From the NCBI GenBank assembly GCA_021463195.1, contig JAJTXZ010000007.1:1-64000 (forward strand): 64,000 nt of DNA. The letters run 5' to 3'. The position numbers and the translations under genes were made by a program. Within the stretch, counting starts at the first letter, position 1. Every line of letters starts with the position of its first letter. The notes under the pieces are model-generated. The model was given only the letters and a program-made list of their open reading frames with translations. It had not been told where the DNA came from and searched no databases. This DNA is from Anaerolineae bacterium (lineage in GTDB: Bacteria; Chloroflexota; Anaerolineae; UBA4142; SHND01). This document shows positions 41,628-56,647 of the stretch, one piece after another.

Positions 41628-44600
41628 ATGGCTCTGTATCTCGTCACTTCTCCCGCCGGCGCGGGCAAAACACAATACGTCATTGAACAAATTCAAACGC
41701 TTTGCGCGGCAAAACCCTTGCCGCGCATTTTGATTCTTTTGCCGACGCGCGCGCAAACCAGCGCATTCCGCGAACGCTTGGGCAAATTGCCGCGTCCCGT
41801 GTTTGGCGTGACCCTCGCCGATTTTCATGCGCTCTATCATTCTATTCTTGACAGCGCCGAGGCGCTGCCGCGTTGGATGCCCGAAGCCACGCGCTATCGC
41901 GTGCTGCGCGCGCTATTGCAAAAACTGGTTTGCGCCAACGAGTTGGCTTATTTGGCGCCGATTGCGGATAAACCCGGTCTCATCAATGTCGTCGCGGAAA
42001 TTATCGCAGAGCTCAAAGAGGGTGGCGTTCCGCCCGAGCGTTTGTCCGAATTGGCGACGACGCCGCGCGTGCGCGACCTCGCGCGCATCTATGCCGCGTA
42101 TCAAGAATTTTTGCGCGCGCATAAATTGGCGGACAATCAAGGGCTTGGGTGGCTTGCGCGCGCCGCGCTTGCAGCGCATCCGCAGTTGTACGCTGATTAC
42201 GATTATGTCGCTGCCGACGGTTTTGATGAATTGAATTTCACGCAGCTCCAAGTATTGAATTCGCTCGCCGCGCGATTGACGCGTCTCGATGTGACGCTCA
42301 CGTTTGATCCCAACCGCCGCGCGCACGCGCGTTTCGCCGAAACGTTCGCGCGCTTGAATGCGTCGGCGAACGCGTTGGAAAAATTCGCGCCGCCGCGCGC
42401 GGCGCCGCTCGAACATTTGGAACATTTTTTGTTCGAGCCCAACGCGCCGCAAAAAAACGCGGACGGTCACATCACAATCACCGCCGCGCCCGACCGCGTG
42501 CGCGAAGTGCGCGCGATGGCGCGCCGCGTGAAACAACTGCTGCTGGATAATGTTCCGCCCGCGCAGATTGGCGTATTATTTCGCGCGCTGTCGCCGTATG
42601 CGGACATTGCGCGCCAAGTGTTTGACGAATATGGCATTCCGTATCGGATATTGCGCGAATTGCCGCTCGCATCGAATCCGCTCGTTGCCGCGCTGCTCAA
42701 TCTCGCCGCATTGAGCGCGCGCGATTTTCCGTGGCGCGAAACGTTTGACGCGCTGCGCTCGCCCTATTTTACTTGGCGCGCATTGGATGAACAAGCCAAA
42801 GCCGAAATCGCGCGCGTCGCGCGCGATGCGCTTGTGCTACGCGGTCGCGATGCGTGGCTTGCCGCGTTCGCGAAACCGCTGGCGGCGGTGGATCGCGATA
42901 AATTCAAAACGCGTTGGGTGGATGAAGCGAGCGCGACGGAAATCGCCGCGCGCCGCGCGCAAATCGAAGATTTTTTCACGCGCGTCACGCCACCCGCGCG
43001 CGCCCCGTTGGCGGAATATGTCACGTTTCTCCAAAACCTTATTGGCCCCGACCCGCGCGCCCAAGTCTGGCTGCGCGAACATTCCGCGTCAGAGGTTGTC
43101 GCGGATACCACAAGCTTGCGCGTAATTGAAAATGCGCGAAATGACGCTGCCGAGCTCGCCGCGCGCGATCTTGCCGCGCTTGACGCGTTCAATAATATTT
43201 TGCGCGGGATGTTGCAAGCCGCCGAGCTGCTGCAAGAAACCGAAAGCGCGTGGGTTGATTTTGTGGCGGACCTTGCGGATGCGGTGAACGCGGCGACATA
43301 TGATTTGCATCCCATGTCGGATGGACGCGTTCTGCTTGCAAGCGTGACGCAGGCGCGCGGCGCGCCCAAACGATATATTTTTCTCGGCGGTTTGGTAGAG
43401 AGCGAATTTCCGCGGCGCGCGCCCCAAGACCCCTTGCTTACTGTCGCCGAACGCGCGCGCTTGCGCGCGGCAGACATTCCGCTTCGAGACTTGCAAGCGC
43501 GCGACGAAGCGACCTTGTTTTATGAAGCGGTCGCGCTTGCGCGCGAGCGTCTCGAACTTTATTATCCGTATCTCGACGACGATGGGAATCCGCAATATCC
43601 ATCGCCCTATCTCGAGTTGACGCAACAACTTTTGCCGGACGTCAAAACGCGGCGCCTCCGCGTCAACGCGAGCCCCGAAATTGAAACTGCCGCGTCAGAA
43701 TCCGAACTCGCTCTCGCGCTGACGTTTGCGCCCGACGCGCCGCGCGCCCAAGCCATCGAACGCGCGTTATGGCAAACCTCGCGCGCGTGGCGGCACAGCC
43801 GCGCGGCGTTGGCGATTGAGGCGCGGCGCGAATCGCGCGCCGCGTGCGACGAGTACAGCGGCGTGATGCGCGATGAAAATTTAAAGCGCGGCTTTGCCCA
43901 ACAATTCGCGCCTACGTACGCGTGGAGCGCGACGCAGTTGAATGAATGGGGCGCGTGCGGCTTTCGTTTTTTCGCGCGGCGTGTGTTGAATTTGCGAGAA
44001 TGGGCTGAACCGCTCGAAGGGATGGAGCGCACGCAGTTGGGCGCGGTGTTTCACCGTATTTTGCAAAACGCCTTTGAAGCGTACGCCGCGCAAAATTTTA
44101 GCGTCACCAGCGCGAACTTGGAACGCGCGCGCGTGATCTTGCGCGAATGCGCCGCGCGCGTGTTGGAGGATGCGCCGCGCCGCTTTGCCTTTCGCGCGAC
44201 GGCATGGTGGGAGCAAGAGCGCCAAGAAATCACGCGCCGTCTGGAACAATTTCTCCGCGACGAAGCGAAACGCAATGATAAAAATCCGACGCAACCTTTT
44301 AGCATCGAAATGCCGTTTGACGCGCGCGTGCGATTGGATGATGAATGGCTACGTCTGCGTGGCGTGTTTGACCGCGTGGACCGCGCGGCGGATGGGTATG
44401 TGTTGATTGATTATAAAACGGGGACGACAAAAATCTCCAAACATGACGTGCGCGAAGGATGGCATTTGCAACTGCCGGTGTATTTTTTCGCGGCAGAGGC
44501 AATGGGCTATGCCATCGCCGACGCGTTTTTTCTGCATATCGGCGATGGCAAAGCAAGCCGCGCGCTGCCGCCGGAAGAGCGCGCGGAATTGCTCTCTCTC

Positions 44601-44786
44601 GCGCGCGCGCATATTTTGAATTATGTCGCGATGGCGCGGCGCGGCGAGTTTGCGGTGAAACCGACGCGCAAGAATGACGCGGTGTGCCTGACGTATTGCG
44701 AATTCGCGGCGCTGTGTCGCGTGGGCCGTTGGAGCGCGCGCAAGGGCATTGAGCTTGGCGACAAGGCAGCTGCCTATGGCGAATGA
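41628..44786 (+). CDS. addB: AddB-type helicase/nuclease subunit with C-terminal PD-(D/E)XK domain
   Basis: The protein of 1052 residues begins with a UvrD-like nucleotide-binding loop (VTSPAGAGKTQYVIEQI). The C-terminal nuclease has GVFDRVDRAADGYVLIDYKTG and LQLPVYFFAAEAMG. Four cysteines expected for the AddB Fe-S cluster are present: one in WGACGFRFF and three in CLTYCEFAALC (Cys-x3-Cys-x5-Cys). AddAB processes double-strand breaks for RecA-dependent repair. It overlaps addA by 11 bases from ATG 44776. Confidence 0.88.
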   Translation: MALYLVTSPAGAGKTQYVIEQIQTLCAAKPLPRILILLPTRAQTSAFRERLGKLPRPVFGVTLADFHALYHSILDSAEALPRWMPEATRYRVLRALLQKLVCANELAYLAPIADKPGLINVVAEIIAELKEGGVPPERLSELATTPRVRDLARIYAAYQEFLRAHKLADNQGLGWLARAALAAHPQLYADYDYVAADGFDELNFTQLQVLNSLAARLTRLDVTLTFDPNRRAHARFAETFARLNASANALEKFAPPRAAPLEHLEHFLFEPNAPQKNADGHITITAAPDRVREVRAMARRVKQLLLDNVPPAQIGVLFRALSPYADIARQVFDEYGIPYRILRELPLASNPLVAALLNLAALSARDFPWRETFDALRSPYFTWRALDEQAKAEIARVARDALVLRGRDAWLAAFAKPLAAVDRDKFKTRWVDEASATEIAARRAQIEDFFTRVTPPARAPLAEYVTFLQNLIGPDPRAQVWLREHSASEVVADTTSLRVIENARNDAAELAARDLAALDAFNNILRGMLQAAELLQETESAWVDFVADLADAVNAATYDLHPMSDGRVLLASVTQARGAPKRYIFLGGLVESEFPRRAPQDPLLTVAERARLRAADIPLRDLQARDEATLFYEAVALARERLELYYPYLDDDGNPQYPSPYLELTQQLLPDVKTRRLRVNASPEIETAASESELALALTFAPDAPRAQAIERALWQTSRAWRHSRAALAIEARRESRAACDEYSGVMRDENLKRGFAQQFAPTYAWSATQLNEWGACGFRFFARRVLNLREWAEPLEGMERTQLGAVFHRILQNAFEAYAAQNFSVTSANLERARVILRECAARVLEDAPRRFAFRATAWWEQERQEITRRLEQFLRDEAKRNDKNPTQPFSIEMPFDARVRLDDEWLRLRGVFDRVDRAADGYVLIDYKTGTTKISKHDVREGWHLQLPVYFFAAEAMGYAIADAFFLHIGDGKASRALPPEERAELLSLARAHILNYVAMARRGEFAVKPTRKNDAVCLTYCEFAALCRVGRWSARKGIELGDKAAAYGE

Positions 44787-47700
44787 TGCGTTGCGCGGCA
44801 ATCAGACGCGCGCGGTCACGGCGCGCGGCAACAATCTTGTCGTCGTTGCGGGCGCGGGGACGGGCAAGACGCGCGTCCTCGTCGAACGTTTTCTCTCGCT
44901 CCTCGAGGAAGGCATCGCGCTGCCCGCGTTGGTCGCGATTACGTTCACCGAAAAAGCGGCGGGCGAAATGCGAACGCGCGTGCGCGACGCGATTAGCGCG
45001 CGCGCGGAAAATACAGCGAATGGCGAACGCGCGAAATGGGAGCGCGCGCTGCGCGCGATGGACGCGGCGCGCATCGGCACAATTCATTCGTTGTGCGCGA
45101 CTCTTTTACGCGCGAATCCGGTCGAAGCGCAAGTAGACCCGCGTTTTGGCGTGTTGGATGAAACGGACGCGACAATCTGGCAAGCCGACGCGTTGGACGC
45201 GGCGATGACCGAGCTGACGGAACGCGGCGGCGCGGCATTGGAATTGTTTCGCGAATACAAAATCAGAGATGTACGAGAAACGAGCGCGCAGCTTTTAAAA
45301 CTGGGAAATCTTGCCCAAGCCGCGTTTGACCAGCTTCCCGCGACGCGCGAGGAATTGATGGCGCAGTGGCGCGCGCAAAGCGCGCGCGCGCAGGGAGTTG
45401 CGCTCGCGCAATTACGCCAAGACGCGGTGTGGCGCGATGCTTTGACCTGGCTTCAAACTAACGCGGCGACGGACAGCGCGGACAAGCTTGAGGCGACGCG
45501 CGCGGCGATGGAACGCGCGGCGCCGCAAATTCATTCCGCGTCCATTCAAACCGCGCTGCGCGCGCTGCGCGAAATCGCGGCGCAAACATTGACGGGCGGG
45601 AGCGCAAAGAATTGGACTGATTTGGATGTCGCCAAAGCAACGCTCAGAACGCTGCGCGAGCGCGCCAAACAGTTTTTGCAAACATACGATTTTGTTTTTG
45701 ACGCGCGCGACGACCGCGCGGCGGAAATGATTTTTTGCTGGCGCGAGTTTTGGGAACGCGCCCAAGCGCAGTATGCGCGGCGCAAAGACGCGGCGCGCGT
45801 TTTAGATTTCAATGATTTGGAGACGCGCGCGCGCGCGTTATTGCAAAATCACGCGGCGGTGCGCGAACGCTATCGCTCTGAAATCGCGTCGCTGTTGGTG
45901 GATGAATTTCAAGATACCAATGGCGCGCAGCGAGATTTGCTCTATGCGCTCGCGGACCTCGCCGCGCCAAATCGGCTTTTTGTGGTCGGCGATGGCAAAC
46001 AATCCATTTATGGTTTTCGCGGCGCTGATGTGACGGTGTTTCAACAAACGCTCGGCGAGATTACCCAACGTTGGGGCGCCGACGCGCATATTTTGTTGGA
46101 CGAATCGTTTCGCGCGCATGTCGCGCTGGTCGAGTGTTTTAACGCTGTGTTTACGCATGTTTTCGCTGTGTCCGGCGAGCGCGCGTTGTATCAAACGTCG
46201 TATGATGCGCTGCGCGGATTGCGCGCGTCGTTCGCGCGCGCCGCGCTGCTGGAAGTGATTCAGATTCCGAAAACTGTCGTCGTCCAAGCTAAAGAACAAA
46301 AACTCGACGCCGATGCGGTTCGCGCATGGGAAGCGCAAGAACTCGCCGCGCGCATAAATGAACTCATCGCGCAAAGATTTCAAGTGTGGGATAAAAAAGC
46401 GCAAGCGTATCGCCCTGCGCGCTTTGGCGATGTGACGCTGTTGTTTCGCGTTGGCTCGTCCATGCCGATTTATGAAGAGGCGTTCAAACAGGCGAATATT
46501 CCATACCTCACGTACGCGGGGACAGGCTATTTTGACCGACCCGAAGTGCGCGATTTGATTCAACTGCTGCGCGCGTTGGACAATCCCGCCGACGATCTCG
46601 CGTTGGCGACGATTTTGCATTCGCCCTTGTACGCGTTGAGCAGTGAAACGTTATATCGCTTGCGGCGCGCGCAGCCAACTTTGCGCGATGCGTTGTTCAA
46701 ATTACCCGACGATTTGACGGGCGCGGAACGGACGCGCGCGGAATTCGCGGCGGCGTCATTGCAAAGTTTATGGGCGCGCGTTGGACGCGTGGCGATTTTG
46801 GATTTGCTGCGGCAGGCATTGGCGGAAACGGGGTATCTCGCCGCCATCAGCGGTTTGAGCAATGGGCTGCGGCGACGCGCCAATGTGGAAAAATTGCTCG
46901 CGCGCGCGCGGCGCGCGGATTCGGCGCGTTTGAGTGAATTCAACGCCTATTTGGCGGATCTCACCACGCGCGAAGCGCGTGAAGGCGACGCGTTGACCGA
47001 AGCGGAAGACGCGGCGCAGCTGATGACGATTCATCGCGCCAAAGGGTTGGAATTCCCGATTGTCGTGATTCCCGACGCGGGGCGCGCGCCGTCTCCGCCG
47101 CATGAATTAATGGCGGTGAATCGCGCGCGCGGCATCGGCGTCAAGGTGCATGATGAGAATGGCGAACGCGTGACGACGGTGGGATTTCGTTTGCTCGAAC
47201 AAGAAGCGGACGCGCGCGACGCGCAAGAAGAGAAACGTTTGTTGTATGTGGCAATGACGCGCGCGCAAGAGTATTTGATTATTTCGGGGAGCGCGACGCC
47301 GCACGCGGAATCGTATTTGCGGCAATTACTCGATGCGCGCGCCGCGTTGGTGGATACGGAGGCAGAGTGGATTGCGCTGGTCGCGCCGCGCACGCGCTTT
47401 CAAGATTTGGAACGCGCGCCCCGCGCGCCGCAAACTATTTCTTGGCGCGCCGCGCCCGCGCCGGAAATGCCAAGCGTGGAATTGCCGCGTTTGGTTGCGC
47501 CGTTGGCTCAACCCGCTGTCTCTCAAATTGAGTTGTGGACGCCGACAGGTTTGGAAGCGTTCGTCCGCGACCGCGCGGAATTTGAGCAGCGCGTTTTGGA
47601 AGGCGCGCCCGAACGCATTATTCCGGTGCGGCGCGATGTTCAAAACGCGCGCGCGCCCGCGTACATTGTCGGCGAAATCGCTCATCGCGCCTTGCAGCGT

Positions 47701-48198
47701 TGGCGTTTTCCGCGCAACACGCCGAATCTCGATACGATTTTGGAACGTTATGCACGCGAGCGCGGGTTGAGTGACGAAAGCGAAATTGATGACGCAGTGC
47801 GTCAAGCGCGCGGCATTCTCGCGCGTTTTGCGCGGAGCGAATTATTTGAGGAAATGGCGCGCGCGCCGACGCGTTATCACGAATTGCCCTTTATGATTTC
47901 ATGGCAAGGCCGCAGCGTGCATGGCGCGATGGATGCGGTGTTTACAGACGCGGATGGACAATGGCGCGTGGTGGATTTCAAGACGGACCGATTACGCGGC
48001 GAACAAGCCGAGATATACACGCTCAAACGCTATGCGGTTCAGATGGCGCTCTATCAAGAAGCGATGCGCGCGCAATTTGACGCGCCGTGCCAAGTGCGCG
48101 TGTGCTATATTCGCGATAATCGGACGGTGGTATTTTCGCAAGATCAACTGGCGACTGAATTGACAAAGGCAATCGAGCGCGCAGGGCTTGATTTTTGA
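44776..48198 (+). CDS. addA: AddA-type UvrD helicase with C-terminal nuclease
   Basis: ATG 44776 gives 1140 residues and overlaps the addB stop codon; a TTG at 44749 is less likely. Helicase motifs: VVAGAGTGKTRVLVERF, ITFTEKAAGEMRTRV, SLLVDEFQDTNGAQRDLL, GDGKQSIYGFRGADV, and TIHRAKGLEFPIVVIPDA. The C-terminal nuclease has WRVVDFKTDRL and AVQMALYQEAM. Together with AddB it should form the complete break-resection complex (RecBCD counterpart). It converges on the RDD gene with only seven bases between stops. Confidence 0.92.
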   Translation: MANDALRGNQTRAVTARGNNLVVVAGAGTGKTRVLVERFLSLLEEGIALPALVAITFTEKAAGEMRTRVRDAISARAENTANGERAKWERALRAMDAARIGTIHSLCATLLRANPVEAQVDPRFGVLDETDATIWQADALDAAMTELTERGGAALELFREYKIRDVRETSAQLLKLGNLAQAAFDQLPATREELMAQWRAQSARAQGVALAQLRQDAVWRDALTWLQTNAATDSADKLEATRAAMERAAPQIHSASIQTALRALREIAAQTLTGGSAKNWTDLDVAKATLRTLRERAKQFLQTYDFVFDARDDRAAEMIFCWREFWERAQAQYARRKDAARVLDFNDLETRARALLQNHAAVRERYRSEIASLLVDEFQDTNGAQRDLLYALADLAAPNRLFVVGDGKQSIYGFRGADVTVFQQTLGEITQRWGADAHILLDESFRAHVALVECFNAVFTHVFAVSGERALYQTSYDALRGLRASFARAALLEVIQIPKTVVVQAKEQKLDADAVRAWEAQELAARINELIAQRFQVWDKKAQAYRPARFGDVTLLFRVGSSMPIYEEAFKQANIPYLTYAGTGYFDRPEVRDLIQLLRALDNPADDLALATILHSPLYALSSETLYRLRRAQPTLRDALFKLPDDLTGAERTRAEFAAASLQSLWARVGRVAILDLLRQALAETGYLAAISGLSNGLRRRANVEKLLARARRADSARLSEFNAYLADLTTREAREGDALTEAEDAAQLMTIHRAKGLEFPIVVIPDAGRAPSPPHELMAVNRARGIGVKVHDENGERVTTVGFRLLEQEADARDAQEEKRLLYVAMTRAQEYLIISGSATPHAESYLRQLLDARAALVDTEAEWIALVAPRTRFQDLERAPRAPQTISWRAAPAPEMPSVELPRLVAPLAQPAVSQIELWTPTGLEAFVRDRAEFEQRVLEGAPERIIPVRRDVQNARAPAYIVGEIAHRALQRWRFPRNTPNLDTILERYARERGLSDESEIDDAVRQARGILARFARSELFEEMARAPTRYHELPFMISWQGRSVHGAMDAVFTDADGQWRVVDFKTDRLRGEQAEIYTLKRYAVQMALYQEAMRAQFDAPCQVRVCYIRDNRTVVFSQDQLATELTKAIERAGLDF

Positions 48199-48205
48199 GC
48201 GGTTA

Positions 48206-48775
48206 TCAAGAATCCAGCTTGGACGCAGGGGCGCGTGATTTCTTTTTGCGCGTCAGCCATGTTTGAACGTGTTCAATCGTTTCAAGATCTTGATTACCGC
48301 GCCACGCGTAAATGACATAGGTGCGGGCGATGGTGTCGTGCAAACCTTGGCGTTGATTATCCACAAAGATAAACGCAAAGCCGATGCCCAATGTGAGAAA
48401 ACAAACGATATAGCCGAAAAGTCGCCGAAGACTGCGCTGGAGGGTCATTGATTCGCCATCAACGCGGACGACGCGGATGCCCAGAATCGCGTTGCCGATT
48501 GTCTGTCCACTGGCGGTCCAAAAGAAAAGCATATAGACAGGCAGGATGAGAATGGCGAACGCCGCTAGCCCAAATCGAGCGCTAAGGCAGATAACGTCGC
48601 CGATCGAATCGAGTTCGGCGGGGCAACGTTGCAGATAAATGCCCAAGAGGCCGAACGACGCTGTAATCAACCACGTCACCACTGCCAGCGTGGTCACGAT
48701 GATTATCATGTCAATCGCCCATGCGATGCCGCGCGTGATACCACCCGCGTATTGTCCAAGCAAGTAAGGTTTCAT
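48206..48775 (-). CDS. RDD-family membrane protein
   Basis: The protein of 189 residues has RDD features: GGITRGIAWAIDMIIIV (the R and D positions), GNAILGIRVVRVDGE and LRRLFGYIVCFLTLGIGFAF, with about three membrane helices. RDD proteins are proposed ion or small-molecule transporters, mostly unproven. Its ATG lies in an ATGA overlap with the stop codon of the 22-residue repeat protein, so the two are translationally coupled and may act together at the membrane. Confidence 0.85.
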   Translation of the reverse strand: MKPYLLGQYAGGITRGIAWAIDMIIIVTTLAVVTWLITASFGLLGIYLQRCPAELDSIGDVICLSARFGLAAFAILILPVYMLFFWTASGQTIGNAILGIRVVRVDGESMTLQRSLRRLFGYIVCFLTLGIGFAFIFVDNQRQGLHDTIARTYVIYAWRGNQDLETIEHVQTWLTRKKKSRAPASKLDS

Positions 48776-50358
48776 GGGTCGTCTCGCTTTGATTTGCGTC
48801 CATAAATTGTCGCGTAACGTTCCGCCAACGCTTGCACTTGTTCGGACGGTTCCGCTAATTCATTCCGCGGCTCGCGGCGGAACAAGCGACGCGCAAAGAT
48901 TTCCAGGACTGTATCCGAAGTCGCCGCGCGTTCACGCACATCTTCCATGACCACTTGCGCCATGCTCAGACTTTGCCCGCGAATCAATTCTTGCACCGCA
49001 TCGGGATTTTCGTTCAAATAATTAATGTACTCGTCGCCCAGTTGACGCACCAATCCATTCAACTGCGTGGGATTGTTTTGAATGTGCGTCAAATAGCGCG
49101 CGGCAATTCCCTGCACCAGCGTTTCCACTTGAGCGGGATTTTCCTGTAGCTGCTCAAGATAGCGTTCCGCTTGCGCGCGCACGAGCGCCTCGACGAGCGC
49201 GGGGTCGTTTTGTAAATAAACCAAATACGCGCCCGCTTGCGCGCGAATCAAATCTTGCGCTTGCGCGGGGTTTTCATTTAAATAGGCAATGTAATTGTTC
49301 GCTTCTTGCTGAATCAGCGCCTGCACTTGTTCGGGATGCGCGCCCAGATGCGCGAGATAACGCCCCGCAACCGTTTGGACTAGCTCTTCCACTTGCTCCG
49401 GTTCCACGCGCAGTAAATCTAAATAGGCGCTCGCTTGTTCGCGAATCAACTGCTGCACCTGCGCGGGATTTGCGGACAAATACGCGATGTAGCGATTCGC
49501 CACTTGTTGCGCCAATGCGTCAAGTTTCTGCGGCTGGGTTTCCAAATGTTGAATATACGCGCCCACTTCGTCCTGAATCAAGATTCGCACCGGTTCTGGA
49601 TGCGCGCGCAAATAGGCGAGATATGAACCCGCGACTTGTTGCGCCAGCGCATCCACGCGCGCAGTATCGGTCAACAAATGGTCAAGATAGCGATTGGCAA
49701 CTGTTTGCACTAACGGGTCGAGTTTTTCTGGACGCGCGGTTAATTCGTCGAGATATTGTTCCGCTTGCGCGCGAATCAATTCCGCTAACGCGGGGTCAGA
49801 AGTAAGCCCTTGTAAAATGCGCGCGGTTTCGGCGCGTATCAAGCGCTCGACGGCGGGGCTGTCCTGAATATAATCGCCGACCTGTTCCACTACGCTATCG
49901 AGCAGCGAACCAGCTAGCCCGCGCTGACGTGTTGGCGCCTTTTTGCGCGGGGCGCGTGGTGAAACGCGCACATGAATATCGTCATCCTCTTTTGGGGGCG
50001 CGACTTTCGGCGCGTGGTCGGTCTCGGCTGTCGCGCGCGGCGTTACAATCTTGAATGCGATCTCATCTGTTTCCGCGTCCGCCAAAGGCGCGCGTTCGAT
50101 GGATTCCGGCGCGACGGTTTGGGCGCGCTCGGACGGCTCGGCAACGTCAACATTTTCGACGGCTTGCGCTGCGGTATCGTCAACGCTTCCGTCCGCCGCG
50201 CGGCGTTTGCCGAACAAGCCGAACACAGCGCTGGCGGTATTTGCCGCGCCCGCAATCACAGAACCCGCGACAACTGCCGCGAGATTGGCATTTTGTTCAT
50301 CGGGCAGGCGCAAATCATCATCGAGCGTGGGCAAGCCGTCAGTTTCATTTTTCATCAT
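48772..50358 (-). CDS. Protein with thirteen exact 22-residue tandem repeats
   Basis: The protein of 528 residues has an acidic N-terminus, one hydrophobic alanine/glycine-rich segment (about 24-50), a charged linker, then thirteen 22-residue repeats at 171-456 (consensus LVxxxAxxYLxxLxxxPxxV) and a C-terminal domain (MAQVVMEDVRERAATSD). Twelve repeats have a Pro near position 19, giving helix-Pro punctuation with an amphipathic pattern like the 22-mers of exchangeable apolipoproteins. I know of no function. It is the first gene of a unit with an RDD membrane protein and is divergent from polyphosphate kinase. Membrane or lipid association is an inference from the repeat pattern. Confidence 0.8.
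   Translation of the reverse strand: MMKNETDGLPTLDDDLRLPDEQNANLAAVVAGSVIAGAANTASAVFGLFGKRRAADGSVDDTAAQAVENVDVAEPSERAQTVAPESIERAPLADAETDEIAFKIVTPRATAETDHAPKVAPPKEDDDIHVRVSPRAPRKKAPTRQRGLAGSLLDSVVEQVGDYIQDSPAVERLIRAETARILQGLTSDPALAELIRAQAEQYLDELTARPEKLDPLVQTVANRYLDHLLTDTARVDALAQQVAGSYLAYLRAHPEPVRILIQDEVGAYIQHLETQPQKLDALAQQVANRYIAYLSANPAQVQQLIREQASAYLDLLRVEPEQVEELVQTVAGRYLAHLGAHPEQVQALIQQEANNYIAYLNENPAQAQDLIRAQAGAYLVYLQNDPALVEALVRAQAERYLEQLQENPAQVETLVQGIAARYLTHIQNNPTQLNGLVRQLGDEYINYLNENPDAVQELIRGQSLSMAQVVMEDVRERAATSDTVLEIFARRLFRREPRNELAEPSEQVQALAERYATIYGRKSKRDDP
48991..49848 (-). repeat. Thirteen tandem 66-bp coding repeats
   Basis: Residues 171-456 of the encoded protein divide into thirteen units of exactly 22 residues without insertions. 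Units 4, 6 and 9, for example, begin DALAQQVAGSY, DALAQQVANRY and QALIQQEANNY. A fourteenth, decayed unit (QELIRGQSLSM) follows. Confidence 0.9.
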
Positions 50359-50540: not shown

Positions 50541-52658
50541 ATGACGAAACTAAAAAAGAAGCGCACATTAAACGGACGCATGAATCCGCCGAAAGCGCAA
50601 GACGCCGAATTGTACGTGAATCGCGAGTTGGCGCTGCTGTCATTTTTTTGGCGCGTGCTGGAAGAGGCGCAAGATGACACGAATCCGCTGTTGGAACGTT
50701 TGAAATTTCTCGCCATTGTCGGCTCGATTTTGGCAGAATTTTTTATGACGCGCGTTTCGGCGTTGAAACAACAAATCGAAGCGGGCATCGTCGAGCGTTC
50801 GGTGGACGGCTTGACGCCGATGGAACAGTTGGAATTGGCGCGTGAGGAGGCGCAGCGGCTCATGCGCGATTCGCGCGCTTGTTTATATGAATTGATGCCG
50901 CAGTTGGAACGCGCGGGCATTTACATTTGCGATTATAACGAACTCGACGACGCGCAGCGCGAGTATGCGCGTGAATATTTCGCGCGCGTCGTATTTCCTG
51001 TCCTGACGCCGCTAGCGTATGACCCCGCGCGCCCGTTTCCGCACATTTCCAACATGAGTCTGAATCTGGCTGTGATTATTCGCGATGGACGCGGGCGCGA
51101 ACGTTTTGCGCGCGTCAAGGTGCCGAATACACTGCCGCGTCTCGTGCCGGTTCCGCCGCCGCCCGACGCGCCCGCCAAGAGTCAATGTTTTGTCTGGCTT
51201 GACCAACTCATCACGCAGCATTTGGACACGCTGTTTCCCGGCATGCAAGTTGTGGACGCGCATCCGTTCCGCGTGACGCGCGATGCCGAGTATGTGATTC
51301 AAGAATTGGAAGCCGACGATTTGTTGGAAACGATTGAGCGCGGCGTGCGCCAGCGTCGTTTTGGCGAAGTGGTGCGGTTGACCATCAGTCCCGCTATGCC
51401 GGATAAAATCCGCGCGATTCTGGTGGATAATCTGAAACTTGAACCCGAAGATATTTATGTGCTGGAAGCGCCGCTGGGCATGAGCGATCTGTTTGGCGTG
51501 TACAGCATGATTGAACGCCCCGATTTAAAATATCCGCCGTTTGCGGCGCATTACCCGCGTCTGCTGGCAAACACCGATGATACCTTTGTGGCGGTGCGCC
51601 AGCGCGATATTTTATTGCATCATCCGTACGATTCATTCAAACCGGTGATCGAGTTTTTGCAAGAAGCCGCGCGCGATTCGCATGTGCTGGCTATTAAAAT
51701 GACGCTGTATCGGGTCGGCAAAAACGCGCCGGTGGTGCAAGCGCTGCTCGACGCGGTGCGTAACAGCAAACAGGTCACGGTGCTGGTGGAACTCAAAGCG
51801 CGGTTTGATGAAGAGAGCAATATCGAGTGGGCAAAACAACTTGAAGCCGAAGGCGTGCATGTGGTGTACGGTTTGCTTGGTCTGAAAACGCATTCTAAAA
51901 TCGCGTTGGTGGTGCGCGATGACGGCGACGAGATTCGGCGCTATTTGCATCTGGCGACGGGCAATTACAACGCGGTGACGGCGCAGCAATATACCGACAT
52001 CGGTTTGCTGACGTGCGATGAAGAGATGGGCGCGGACGCGTCGGACTTGTTCAATTATTTGACCGGCTATTCCGCCAAAACCGAATATCGTAAATTTTTG
52101 GTCGCGCCGCTCAATATGCGCGCGCATCTGGAAGCGTTGGTGGAGCGCGAAATCGAATGCGCGCGGCGCGGCGCGGCTGCGCACATTATCATGAAGATGA
52201 ATTCGCTCGTGGACCAAGAGATGATTCGGTTGTTTTATAAAGCGTCGCAGCAAGGCGTGAAGCTGGATTTGATTGTGCGCGGGATGTGCTGTCTGCGCCC
52301 CGGATTGCCCGGCGTCAGCGACAACATTCGCGTGTTGAGTATCGTCGGCCGTTTTTTGGAACACAGCCGCATCTATTATTTTCGCAACGACGGCGCGGAC
52401 GAGGTATATCTCGGCAGCGCGGATGTGCGCTCGCGCAATCTCGACCGTCGCGTCGAAATTTTATTTCCGATCGAAGACCAGCGACTTGTGCAGTATATTC
52501 GCGACGATATTTTAAAGGTGTATTTATCCGATAATGTCAAAGCGCGCGAAATGCATGCTGACGGTTCGTACACGCGCCGCCGCGCCGCCGCCGGTCAAGA
52601 ACGCATCAGCGCGCAAGAATGGCTGATTGCGTATCGCGGCAAAAATCATTCGCAGTAA
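50541..52658 (+). CDS. ppk1: Polyphosphate kinase 1
   Basis: The start at ATG 50541 follows GAGGA and gives 705 residues, the usual PPK1 length. Visible are the N-terminal YVNRELALLSFFWRVLEEA, HHPYDSFKPVIEF, AIKMTLYRVGKNAPVVQAL, LLGLKTHSKIALVVRDD with the expected autophosphorylated His, and GSADVRSRNLDRRVEILFPI. PPK1 makes polyphosphate reversibly from ATP at the membrane. It is divergent from the repeat-protein/RDD unit, with 182 bases between starts. No exopolyphosphatase gene is near. Confidence 0.96.
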   Translation: MTKLKKKRTLNGRMNPPKAQDAELYVNRELALLSFFWRVLEEAQDDTNPLLERLKFLAIVGSILAEFFMTRVSALKQQIEAGIVERSVDGLTPMEQLELAREEAQRLMRDSRACLYELMPQLERAGIYICDYNELDDAQREYAREYFARVVFPVLTPLAYDPARPFPHISNMSLNLAVIIRDGRGRERFARVKVPNTLPRLVPVPPPPDAPAKSQCFVWLDQLITQHLDTLFPGMQVVDAHPFRVTRDAEYVIQELEADDLLETIERGVRQRRFGEVVRLTISPAMPDKIRAILVDNLKLEPEDIYVLEAPLGMSDLFGVYSMIERPDLKYPPFAAHYPRLLANTDDTFVAVRQRDILLHHPYDSFKPVIEFLQEAARDSHVLAIKMTLYRVGKNAPVVQALLDAVRNSKQVTVLVELKARFDEESNIEWAKQLEAEGVHVVYGLLGLKTHSKIALVVRDDGDEIRRYLHLATGNYNAVTAQQYTDIGLLTCDEEMGADASDLFNYLTGYSAKTEYRKFLVAPLNMRAHLEALVEREIECARRGAAAHIIMKMNSLVDQEMIRLFYKASQQGVKLDLIVRGMCCLRPGLPGVSDNIRVLSIVGRFLEHSRIYYFRNDGADEVYLGSADVRSRNLDRRVEILFPIEDQRLVQYIRDDILKVYLSDNVKAREMHADGSYTRRRAAAGQERISAQEWLIAYRGKNHSQ

Positions 52659-52684
52659 AAAAAATCGCCGCGCCAATTTAAAAG

Positions 52685-52732
52685 AATAAAACGCCGCGCG
52701 CATTGACGCATGCGCGCACGGCGTTTTATTTT
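52685..52732. terminator. Bidirectional terminator after ppk1
   Basis: AATAAAACGCCG pairs with CGGCGTTTTATT, enclosing an inner CGCGCAT/ATGCGCG stem, and ends in T-rich sequence on both strands. It separates ppk1 from the convergent HXXEE gene. Confidence 0.85.
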
Positions 52733-52760
52733 GCGGTCGGACAGCGCGAGCTTGCGTATT

Positions 52761-53408
52761 TCACTTTTTTCGCGACGCGGGCGGCAGGCAGCGCGGTGGA
52801 AAGATGTACGGCGTGCGCTTATCTTTTTGCCAATCAATCATTTTGAAAATGCCAAGATAAGTCAGCGCCAAGCCCAACCCGATTCCGCCAAGCCAATCGA
52901 ACCACGCCGCCGTTTGATTTTGCCAGAGGAGCAAAAAGAAATACAGCGCGAGCGGCAAAAATAAAAGCAGCGCGGTCGCCATACCGGGGTTGTACACTGT
53001 TTTTCCTTTGAGATTAAAGAGGAACGTATGCGCGAGAACATTGCCGCATGAAACAAATATCGCCGCGATGCCCAGCCAAATGAATTGCGCGCCGAATACC
53101 GCCGCCAACCAATAGATCGCCCAGCCCAGCGCCACATTGATTAACAGCGCGCTGTTTGGGTTGAGCGGATAGCGGTCAGGCGCTTGACTCGCAAACATGA
53201 CCGTATTTATCATGCCGGGAAAATAGCCGGGATAGCGGTATTCTTCAAATTGATGCAAAAAGAGCGCGATGAGATTGAGCCAGAGGACAAGCGCCAAAGG
53301 ACTCGATGGCGTCACGCACAAATAAATACTCGACGCGAGCGCAAGCCCCAATCCAAGCTCGAACCAATGTTGACGCAGCCAGCTCATAATTTTATTCAGT
53401 CGAGTCAT
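52761..53408 (-). CDS. HXXEE-domain membrane protein
   Basis: The protein of 215 residues has about six membrane helices and the name-giving motif in FLHQFEEYRYPGYF, with further conserved polar residues in SCGNVLAHTFLFN. The HXXEE family is of unknown function; the His and Glu residues could hold a metal in the membrane. The gene follows the HAD gene on the same strand, separated by 110 bases that carry a 34-bp palindrome. Confidence 0.8.
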   Translation of the reverse strand: MTRLNKIMSWLRQHWFELGLGLALASSIYLCVTPSSPLALVLWLNLIALFLHQFEEYRYPGYFPGMINTVMFASQAPDRYPLNPNSALLINVALGWAIYWLAAVFGAQFIWLGIAAIFVSCGNVLAHTFLFNLKGKTVYNPGMATALLLFLPLALYFFLLLWQNQTAAWFDWLGGIGLGLALTYLGIFKMIDWQKDKRTPYIFPPRCLPPASRKK

Positions 53409-53467
53409 TGTATTCGATGGTCACAGCTCTAGTGATTACGCATATCTCGAAAACGTAGCGGACTTTC

Positions 53468-53501
53468 AGACCCTAAGGATTTTCGAAAACCCTTAGGGTC
53501 T
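53468..53501. repeat. 34-bp palindrome, AGACCC family, copy 3
   Basis: AGACCCTAAGG..CCTTAGGGTCT with one mismatch. Read in reverse, its flanks (CGGATTTCTAGACCC) match copy 1, and GTGATTAC/CGTAATCA lie at its outer ends. Confidence 0.85.
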
Positions 53502-53518
53502 AGAAATCCGCGTAATCA

Positions 53519-54223
53519 TCAGTCACAGCTATTGCGCGCGTAAAGAACTTGGCGCCCGCGCGCCGCCGCCAACAATTTCTCTGCATCGTATTCTAATAAA
53601 TCGCCGATGCGCTCCAGCGTCACATCGGCAGGCAGATAGCCCTCGATTTGTTTGACGTCATGCGCGTAATGGCCTTGCCGCACCCAAACGGTGGTGACGC
53701 GCGCGCCCCAGATTTTTTTTAACGCGTCCAAAATCCGCAGCTTGTCGTCAAACACCACATAATGATCGGCGGGAAAATGTTCTTCCACCGCGTCCGTTTC
53801 CAATTCTTTGTGAATAAAAATCAAGACGTTGCCGCCGAACGCTTCCCACAGCCCCGCGTTTTCGATTTTGAACGGTTGAAACACCACATCGCCGTCGGAC
53901 AGAACCGCGACGGCGCCGAATGGTTTGACATGTTCAATCGCGTCGAGCGAACCGGGGAACAGCCGATTGGCAAAATGATAATTCAAAAGATATAACGAAA
54001 CGTGCATGATTTCGGTGTGATGCGGATGCGCGAGCCGATACGATTGCAGCGCGCCTAAATAATCCGCGTAACCGAGTTCGCGGCGGAGTTGTTCAAAGAG
54101 GGCAAAATAAAGTTGCTGCGCGTCGGCGCCGATTTGTTGCGTGAGAAACTGATGCAAATCCATCGTCACGCGGTCGGTGTCGAGCAGCGTATTGTCAACG
54201 TCAAAGAGGAAAACGAGTCGCAT
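53519..54223 (-). CDS. HAD-family hydrolase
   Basis: The start at ATG 54223 gives 234 residues; a TTG 18 bases upstream is possible. HAD motifs are FDVDNTLLDTD (nucleophile and acid Asp), the Ser/Thr motif in AVLSDGD and the late DDK of VVFDDKLRILDAL. The long alpha-helical cap (about 20-90) suggests a phosphatase acting on a small phosphorylated metabolite. It follows phosphoglucomutase by 23 bases, so a sugar phosphate is a reasonable guess only. Confidence 0.85.
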   Translation of the reverse strand: MRLVFLFDVDNTLLDTDRVTMDLHQFLTQQIGADAQQLYFALFEQLRRELGYADYLGALQSYRLAHPHHTEIMHVSLYLLNYHFANRLFPGSLDAIEHVKPFGAVAVLSDGDVVFQPFKIENAGLWEAFGGNVLIFIHKELETDAVEEHFPADHYVVFDDKLRILDALKKIWGARVTTVWVRQGHYAHDVKQIEGYLPADVTLERIGDLLEYDAEKLLAAARGRQVLYARNSCD

Positions 54224-54246
54224 TGTCGTGTTTAGACGCAAGCGCG

Positions 54247-55890
54247 CTATTTCGTTAACGCGCGCGCGACAATCGTTTGCGCTTGTTCCACAATCGCTTG
54301 CAAATGTTGCGCGCTGATAAAGCTCTCGGCGTAAATTTTATAAATGTCTTCGGTGCCCGACGGACGCGCGGCGAACCAACCGTGTTCCGTCACCACCTTT
54401 AATCCGCCAATCGGTTCATTATCGCCCGGCGCGCGCGTCAATTTCGCCAAAATTTTTTCGCCTGCCAATTCCGTCGCGCTGACATCCGTGGGCGCTAATT
54501 TGGCGAGTTTCGCTTTTTGCGCCGCGTTCGCGGGCGCGTCCTGCCGCGTATAATAGGGCGCGCCGAAACGCGCGGTCATGCTCTGATAATGTTCGCCGGG
54601 GTCGCGTCCCGTCACCGCGGTAATTTCCGCCGCGAGCAAGCCGAGCAGCGGACCGTCCTTGTCTGTCGTCCACACCGTGCCGTCGCGCCGCAAAAAACTC
54701 GCGCCCGCGCTTTCTTCGCCGCCGAAACAAAAGGAACTGTCAAACAAGCCCGGCGCGAGATATTTGAAACCCACCGGCGTTTCGACGAGTTTGCGATTCA
54801 ATGCGCCGACAACGCGGTCAATCATGCTGCTGCTCACGAGCGTTTTGCCGACGCCGGAGGTCGCGCGCCACTGCGGCCGATGTGTCAACAAATATTCAAT
54901 CGCCACCGCCAGATAATGATTTGGATTCATCAAACCGCTTGAACGCGTGACGATGCCGTGGCGATCGGCGTCGGGATCATTGCCCCACGCAATATCAAAA
55001 TCATCTTTTAATTTGACGAGCCCCGCCATGGCGTACGGACTGGAACAATCCATGCGAATTTTGCCATCGTGGTCAACGGTCATAAAGGCAAAGGTCGCGT
55101 CCAGTTTTGGATTGGTGACGGTCAGATGCAAACCATATTTTTCCGCAATCGGCTGCCAATACGCTAGCGCTGCGCCGCCCAATGGGTCCACGCCGATTTT
55201 GATGCCGCTCGCGCGCACCGCATCGAAATCAATCACGTTCGCCAAATCGTCCACATAGCCCACAACGTAATCTTGCGTGTGCGTGGTCGACGCGCGCCGC
55301 GCCGTTTCGTACGCGACGCGTTTCACGCCTGCGTTGCCGCCGCGCAGCAATTCATTCGCGCGATTTTGAATCCATTGCGTCGTCGCGCTGTCGGCGGGCC
55401 CGCCTTCGGGCGGATTGTATTTAAAGCCGCCATCGCGCGGCGGATTGTGCGATGGCGTAATCACGATTCCGTCCGCGCACGCGCGCGGATGTTTGCGATT
55501 CCATGCCAAAATCGCGCGCGAAATCGCCGGCGTCGGCGTGAATCCTTCCGCGCTTTGAATTACCGTTTCGACGCCGTTCGCCGCTAGAACCTGAAGCGCG
55601 GTGTGTTCCGCAGGCGTGGATACGGCGTGCGTATCTTTGCCCATAAACAGCGGACCCGAAAAATTTTTTGTCTTGCGAAAATCGCAAATCGCTTGGGTAA
55701 TCGCCAAGATATGCGCTTGATTAAAATTACCGTCCAAGGGCGAGCCGCGGTGCCCGCTGGTGCCAAACGCGACGCGCTGCGCGGGATTGTTGGGGTCGGG
55801 TTTGAGTTCGAAATACGCGCGCTCCAACGCCGCGAGATCAATCAAAAGGTTTGGCGGCGCAGGTTTCCCGGCAAGTGGAGAAAGGGTCAT
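54247..55890 (-). CDS. pgm: Phosphoglucomutase (alpha-D-glucose type)
   Basis: The start at ATG 55890 behind GAGG gives 547 residues, the normal length of this group. Motifs: [16 protein letters not shown], the catalytic serine loop [20 protein letters not shown], metal loop [12 protein letters not shown], sugar loop [11 protein letters not shown] and phosphate loop [13 protein letters not shown]. It interconverts glucose 1-phosphate and glucose 6-phosphate in glycogen or cell-wall precursor metabolism. Confidence 0.96.
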
Positions 55891-55933
55891 GGCATATACC
55901 TCAAGAAAAAAGCGCAAGCTGTCGCGCGCGAGT

Positions 55934-56647
55934 TTAAAGCGGCGCGCCGAGCCAGACGCCCAACGCATAGCGCCCCAATGCCAGCGCATTCAACAGCAGC
56001 AGCGCAATCAGTCCGCCCGCCGCGAAACGCGGCAACAAATCGCGCGGCTGGGTTGCGGCGCGAAAAAAACTTGCGGCGAGCGCCGTCCAGATACTCGCGT
56101 TCAATCCCAGAATCGCGACGAGCATCAGCGCGCTGAGCGGATACAGCAGCCATTCCATTTGGCTGTTGATGAGAACGACGAGTCCCAGCGCGAGCGCGCA
56201 CAAAAACAAAAAATCCGCGACGTTTTCAAAAAGCGGCTTGGAACGCGGTTCGCGATATAAATTGCTGTTGAGCATCGCGAATAATAAACTGCCGAGCGAG
56301 ACACCCATTAGCGCGCCGGTGAGCAAACGCAGCAAGTTTTGCGGTTCGTACAAAAACGGTTGACCCCGCAGTTCGGACGCGAACGAATTCACGCCGTCGC
56401 CTGCCCACAAAAAAAAGAAAATAATCAGCGCGACCAGATACGGCGTTTTAGGCAGCTGCGCCGCGCGCGGTTTGCGGACCGCCAAATACACGAGCGTCAA
56501 CAATCCGCCGAGATACATGCCGGAGCAGCGCGCGCATAAACACAATGGCGTCCCCGCGATAAAGTACGAATGCGAATCCCATTGATGACATACCGCCGAC
56601 CCGAACCAATTCGCCGCGCTCAATAACCAATCCATCGCGTTATTCAT
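55934..56647 (-). CDS. DUF2085 membrane protein
   Basis: The protein of 237 residues has about six membrane helices. The N-terminal Cys/His cluster ([12 protein letters not shown], then [13 protein letters not shown]) is the DUF2085 signature. The family is uncharacterised; the cysteines suggest a metal or redox centre near the membrane surface. It is upstream of pgm on the same strand with 43 bases between, probably one unit. Confidence 0.82.

Follow-up and report, generated by a model that had tools for sequence, protein, structure and literature searches.

A conserved cap–RDD gene pair of Chloroflexota with a variable helix–proline stalk and a possible link to neutral lipids

A protein carrying a 22-residue repeat array was examined in a 64,000-nucleotide stretch of an Anaerolineae contig (the window, by which the whole stretch is meant). 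The conserved entity was found to be a gene pair rather than the array: a cap protein whose length-adjustable helix–Pro stalk holds 0–13 units of 22, 21 or 13 residues, and an RDD-family membrane protein. The pair is firm, and the cap family is apparently undescribed, in Chloroflexota. The cap protein may be a membrane-tethered helical scaffold that works with the RDD protein at sites of neutral-lipid handling; we give this reading a probability of roughly 0.4, its lipid part being drawn from genomic associations. It would suggest how Chloroflexota that make wax esters or triacylglycerol might organise stored lipid, a task to which searches of the open-access literature on these bacteria assigned no protein, and it provides a role hypothesis for part of the RDD family together with the name of a conserved partner.

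Gene pair and protein architecture

The features of the locus are given in Table 1. The overlap of the two genes in an ATGA, proposed by the first-pass annotation, is present in the sequence, and so is the proposed hydrophobic segment near the N-terminus, though its maximal 19-residue Kyte–Doolittle mean of 1.58 makes it borderline for a transmembrane helix. The repeat/cap protein occurs in one copy in its own genome, and an ortholog in an Anaerolineae MAG is 71% identical and likewise carries 13 repeats. The C-terminal region has the consensus ..YL.ENPE.VQ.LVQGQS..MA.E..DEVRERTVTAD...E...R.LLRR. RDD is a very large, broad and mostly uncharacterised family, and the partner protein is a clear member of it (PF06271, E=2.4e-24, 86.6 bits vs a cut-off of 24.1). 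Convergent with the RDD gene lie two large overlapping genes (41628–48198) which by eye resemble an AddB/AddA-type helicase–nuclease pair.

Table 1. Features of the cap–RDD locus, in window positions; amino acid (aa) numbers are those of the repeat/cap protein.
Feature	Position	Strand	Remarks
Repeat/cap protein gene	48772–50358	−	ATG start, 528 aa
13 gap-free 22-residue repeats	48940–49797	−	aa 188–473
Family-defining C-terminal region	48835–49053	−	aa ~436–508, last repeats plus cap; alignment, profile search E=1.2e-34
Hydrophobic Ala/Gly/Val segment	50221–50277	−	aa 28–46; borderline membrane helix
Linker with VRVSPRAPR motif	49924–50211	−	aa 50–145; motif common to short paralogs in the genus
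RDD-family membrane protein gene (partner)	48206–48775	−	189 aa; overlap of 4 bases (ATGA, 48772–48775)
Polyphosphate kinase (PPK1) gene (context)	50541–52658	+	divergent; neighbour of a cap gene only within the genus

Cap family and RDD pairing

A cap profile built from an alignment of 11 sequences matched 46 of 396 genomes of the class, a count that includes one borderline match (G030) and one partial match (G368), neither of them among the fetched loci. In a draw of 400 genomes from the phylum, 14 matches were reduced to 12 cap-bearing genomes after G455 and G616 had been read by eye and dropped as unrelated proteins. Both sets are samples with many incomplete genomes, and members of one genus are not independent observations. 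The locus set comprised 57 cap loci, the window included; wherever there was room (53 of 53 loci), the RDD gene came next in the same orientation, its start falling between −321 and +158 bp relative to where the cap ORF ends, and the remaining four stop at contig edges with 2–106 bases left (L030, whose weak cap match is a short paralog, was excluded from this count). A survey of the pair across genomes, which the first-pass annotation had called for, found the pairing kept at every locus with room. No RDD protein with a dedicated cap or repeat partner was found described in the open-access literature. RDD proteins of Actinobacteria may be fused to similar N-terminal regions, which we take only as a lead.

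The partners in L022, L023, L079, L082 and L093 carry a long C-terminal extension, alike by eye, for which no Pfam match was found in L082. In L109 (5851–6357) and L110 (8387–8884) the gene after RDD encodes a DUF1269 protein. Among the pattern matches in IMG/VR (14 in total) no relative was confirmed, and tblastn searches of plasmids gave no match for the full-length protein or for a relative that carries 13-mers, the low-complexity filter of BLAST being able to hide repeats.

The family is defined by a C-terminal cap that is conserved; the repeats form an insert that varies between members. Scanned with a 22-column matrix built from the window repeats, the window protein and its ortholog gave 13 units each, a congener 11 and proteins of other lineages 12, 11, 7, 5 and 4, and 31 of the 57 cap loci had none. 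The units that precede the cap are 21 residues long in L022 and L079, and 13-residue repeats (SPALDQVITQVAQ type) take this place in six of the nine cap proteins from outside the class (L118–L122 and L124). The array is real, and the window shows one of the longest forms of the stalk, yet it is not the defining part: relatives paired with RDD have no repeats or 13-residue units. Because the stalk can expand and its unit length is not conserved, a function tied to the 22-residue geometry of apolipoproteins is disfavoured; the expansion of helix units of different length at one site of a protein in different lineages offers a clean natural experiment on how repeats evolve. Some 22-mers of the L098 cap protein are identical at the protein level (maximum pairwise identity 1.0), which points to recent tandem duplication or conversion.

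The 22-residue array and its likeness to apolipoproteins

The claim of thirteen gap-free repeats was borne out by two calculations: identity autocorrelation over aa 171–470 was 0.331 for lag 22 and 0.363 for lag 44, values that compare with at most 0.18 for any lag of 5–59 in 2000 shuffles, and the matrix recovered 13/13 repeats at a spacing of 22 above a shuffle-derived 99% threshold. Eleven of the 13 repeats open with Pro at position 1 (the first repeat has D-P and the third T), so that the presence of Pro in most repeats holds, the earlier placement at position 19 being a matter of register. Columns 4, 7, 8, 15, 16 and 19 are hydrophobic, with Leu7 in every repeat and Tyr15 in 12. AlphaFold2 models of the full protein and the ortholog (mean pLDDT 35) and of a six-repeat block (pLDDT 62, pTM 0.37) were too poor for a fold claim or a verdict between compact and extended; in these low-confidence models helices are broken at most Pro positions.

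The first-pass annotation had likened the repeats to those of exchangeable apolipoproteins (PF01442; A1/A4/E), and the likeness stands in so far as both have tandem 22-residue helices, a Pro opening most repeats and moderate amphipathicity. It fails in other respects. PF01442 gave no match to the window protein and matched one of 52 relatives, at E=0.006. The amphipathic 11/3 helix of apolipoproteins has a periodicity of ~98–100 degrees, whereas the hydrophobic moment of the averaged repeat peaked at 93 degrees in six of seven arrays and at 94 in the seventh; the averaged moment of the window array at 100 degrees gave p=0.03 vs shuffles. The window array is net acidic (−20) with almost no Lys (2), and the protein comes from a bacterium, carries a hydrophobic segment and has an RDD gene as its constant partner. 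Class A helices place basic residues at the interface and acidic residues at the centre of the polar face; a trend of this kind was seen at marginal significance, with p=0.03 at 96 degrees and 0.11 at 100 degrees for the window array and p of 0.04–0.43 for the six other arrays. With a HeliQuest-type discriminant, the window repeats scored −0.62 to 0.68; these values do not exceed the lower limit for lipid binders, and the repeats are not predicted to bind lipid.

The nearest functional precedent, likened by description, is the TadA/MLDS/HBHA group of actinobacterial lipid-body proteins, which are reported to be helical, to resemble apolipoprotein domains and to affect neutral-lipid inclusions; the same paper reports HBHA-related proteins only from actinobacteria (PMC6176652). 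The C-terminal domain of HBHA-related proteins is reported to be rich in Lys (PMC8467707). The cap family differs from this description in having its own cap and an RDD partner.

Most Pfam and NCBIfam matches to the repeats (B domain, TcaA, acylphosphatase, Csd1) were rejected. A defence system was rejected as well, the sole PADLOC matches being Cas8c models over short stretches of repeats.

Association with neutral-lipid genes

Wax-ester/triacylglycerol synthase (WS/DGAT; PF03007, over cut-off) was found in 40 of 46 cap-positive vs 58 of 350 cap-negative genomes of the class (Fisher 1e-21, with genomes as units and without a species tree). Counted by genus, the figures were 24/28 for cap-positive vs 29/194 for other genera, and for genomes of at least 3.5 Mb among the first 98 relatives, with G030 left out, 9/9 vs 7/51. 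In seven of 57 loci (two genera) the RDD gene is immediately followed by WS/DGAT, each time with an HHxxxDG motif. In four more loci, from three genera, squalene/phytoene synthase adjoins the pair (L028, L113, L114 and, divergently, L117; assigned by Pfam for L028 and L113 and by phmmer for L114 and L117), and an ABC1/UbiB-type kinase adjoins it in the first three. These four loci cover two of the six class genomes that are cap-positive and lack WS/DGAT (G236 and G263, one genus) and one of the six such genomes outside the class (G477). The remaining 46 of the 57 loci, the window included, have neither enzyme nearby; the single WS/DGAT match of the own genome (HHSMADG motif; G000:C2:834-2399, L032) lies on another contig. 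This gene adjoins a cytochrome P450 gene.

Outside the class only 3/9 cap-positive genomes have WS/DGAT. Cytochrome P450, used as a control family, was also enriched, in 34 of 43 cap-positive vs 12 of 37 cap-negative genomes (odds 7.9 vs 34 for WS/DGAT); the 43 are the 46 without G002, G030 and G368, and the 37, all of at least 3.5 Mb, happened to omit the WS/DGAT-positive, cap-negative genomes G033, G040, G067 and G069. The co-occurrence with WS/DGAT is therefore in part a matter of lifestyle or ancestry. Chloroflexi MAGs are reported to hold a triacylglycerol-synthase gene (PMC9942424), and Roseiflexus/Chloroflexus mats to contain wax esters (PMC4400912). No paper linking RDD with wax ester, lipid droplets or Chloroflexi lipid was found in the open-access literature.

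Proposed function and alternative explanations

A neutral-lipid role is favoured because of the co-occurrence with WS/DGAT and the presence of WS/DGAT or squalene/phytoene synthase at 11 loci; it is weakened by the count outside the class, the P450 enrichment, the acidic repeats and the HeliQuest-type scores. On this genomic evidence a putative role in the organisation of neutral lipid is the best-supported single idea. The N-terminal hydrophobic segment or segments and the RDD partner would hold the cap protein at the cytoplasmic membrane, and the stalk of Pro-punctuated helices would set its reach or surface area. The pair might then organise or retain lipid of the neutral or isoprenoid kind (wax ester, triacylglycerol, squalene/phytoene products), or else its biosynthetic enzymes, acting not as a soluble apolipoprotein would but as scaffolding for lipid bodies or for membrane sites rich in lipid. 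Of the membrane or storage-body coat that had first been suggested, the hydrophobic segment, the RDD coupling and indirect genomic evidence for storage lipid are in favour, and the notion of a true apolipoprotein is not supported. It is conceivable, though unlikely, that Chloroflexota evolved a neutral-lipid-body organiser of their own, independent of TadA and phasins, in which RDD would recruit the cap protein and the adjustable stalk would coat or corral deposits of wax ester and triacylglycerol or isoprenoids made by WS/DGAT or squalene/phytoene synthase, the 22-, 21- and 13-residue units having arisen separately.

The RDD pairing, as the strongest single fact, also fits an accessory subunit that regulates or assembles an RDD cation/proton antiporter, the lipid link then being a by-product of lifestyle. 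The one characterised RDD protein found, from Halobacillus andaensis, is reported to be a Na+(Li+,K+)/H+ antiporter with essential Arg/Asp residues (PMC5996927), but a single member from a halophile says little about the present subgroup of so broad a family. Genes for ion transport or salt stress did not recur, by eye, in the listed neighbourhoods, and the WS/DGAT co-occurrence is not predicted by such a subunit, which we consider rather unlikely. The 22-mers could instead build a protein-binding alpha-solenoid or helical rod that has nothing to do with lipid. Two models match the repeat region above their Pfam cut-offs, Arm_2 (24.4 bits, cut-off 20.4) and DUF445 (PF04286; 42.3 bits, cut-off 33.8), the best stretch of the latter, aa 280–470, corresponding to profile positions 140–308 of 368, and the stripe of hydrophobic residues, at about 93 degrees, hints that the helices pack through more than one face. 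The DUF445 match is confined to the repeats, and 8 of the 52 members scanned share it (E<=0.01). The odd/even alternation expected of two-helix repeats gave no signal in six arrays (p 0.38–0.997), for which reason a two-helix (A/B) repeat was rejected although lag 44 slightly exceeds lag 22; and Foldseek with the low-confidence six-repeat model returned no PDB match at E<=0.001. As the association with lipid genes would also be left unexplained, a purely protein-binding scaffold appears doubtful.

Polyphosphate and polyhydroxyalkanoate

A link to polyphosphate granules had been suggested by the divergent neighbour, which is indeed a real PPK1. The site divergent from ppk is taken by the cap protein in the window or by a short paralog that corresponds to its N-terminal part and ends in a basic tail, in 4/4 genomes in which both genes were seen; this regularity is what a granule protein tied to ppk would have in its favour. 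The short paralogs are divergent from ppk in three congeners (G003, G004 and G005; L029–L031), which makes the linkage a synteny within one genus, and since a block of phosphoglucomutase, HAD hydrolase and ppk genes recurs there, ordinary inheritance suffices as its explanation. None of the 56 other cap loci has a ppk match (~6 kb on each side where the contig allows), and an acidic array is unlikely to bind a polyanion. A polyphosphate-granule protein is accordingly very improbable.

A phasin-like coat of polyhydroxyalkanoate granules is scarcely credible, even though PHA synthase (PF07167) was matched in seven of the nine cap-positive genomes from outside the class, three of them strongly. 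Within the class it was found in 1/45 cap-positive and 2/80 cap-negative genomes (the 80 include the borderline G030), and phasin models gave no match among 52 family members (E<=0.01). The own genome gave no PhaC_N (PF07167) match, which largely refutes the phasin reading there.

The short paralogs (L029, 2215–2706; L030, 6259–6888; L031, 6152–6619) all conserve a VRVS.RAPR motif and have a basic tail. The ppk, HAD hydrolase and phosphoglucomutase genes, at 50541–55989 in the window and 490–6004 in L031, are possibly a cluster for polyphosphate/glycogen metabolism; in L030 and L031 a glucokinase/ROK-like gene (by eye) accompanies the block.
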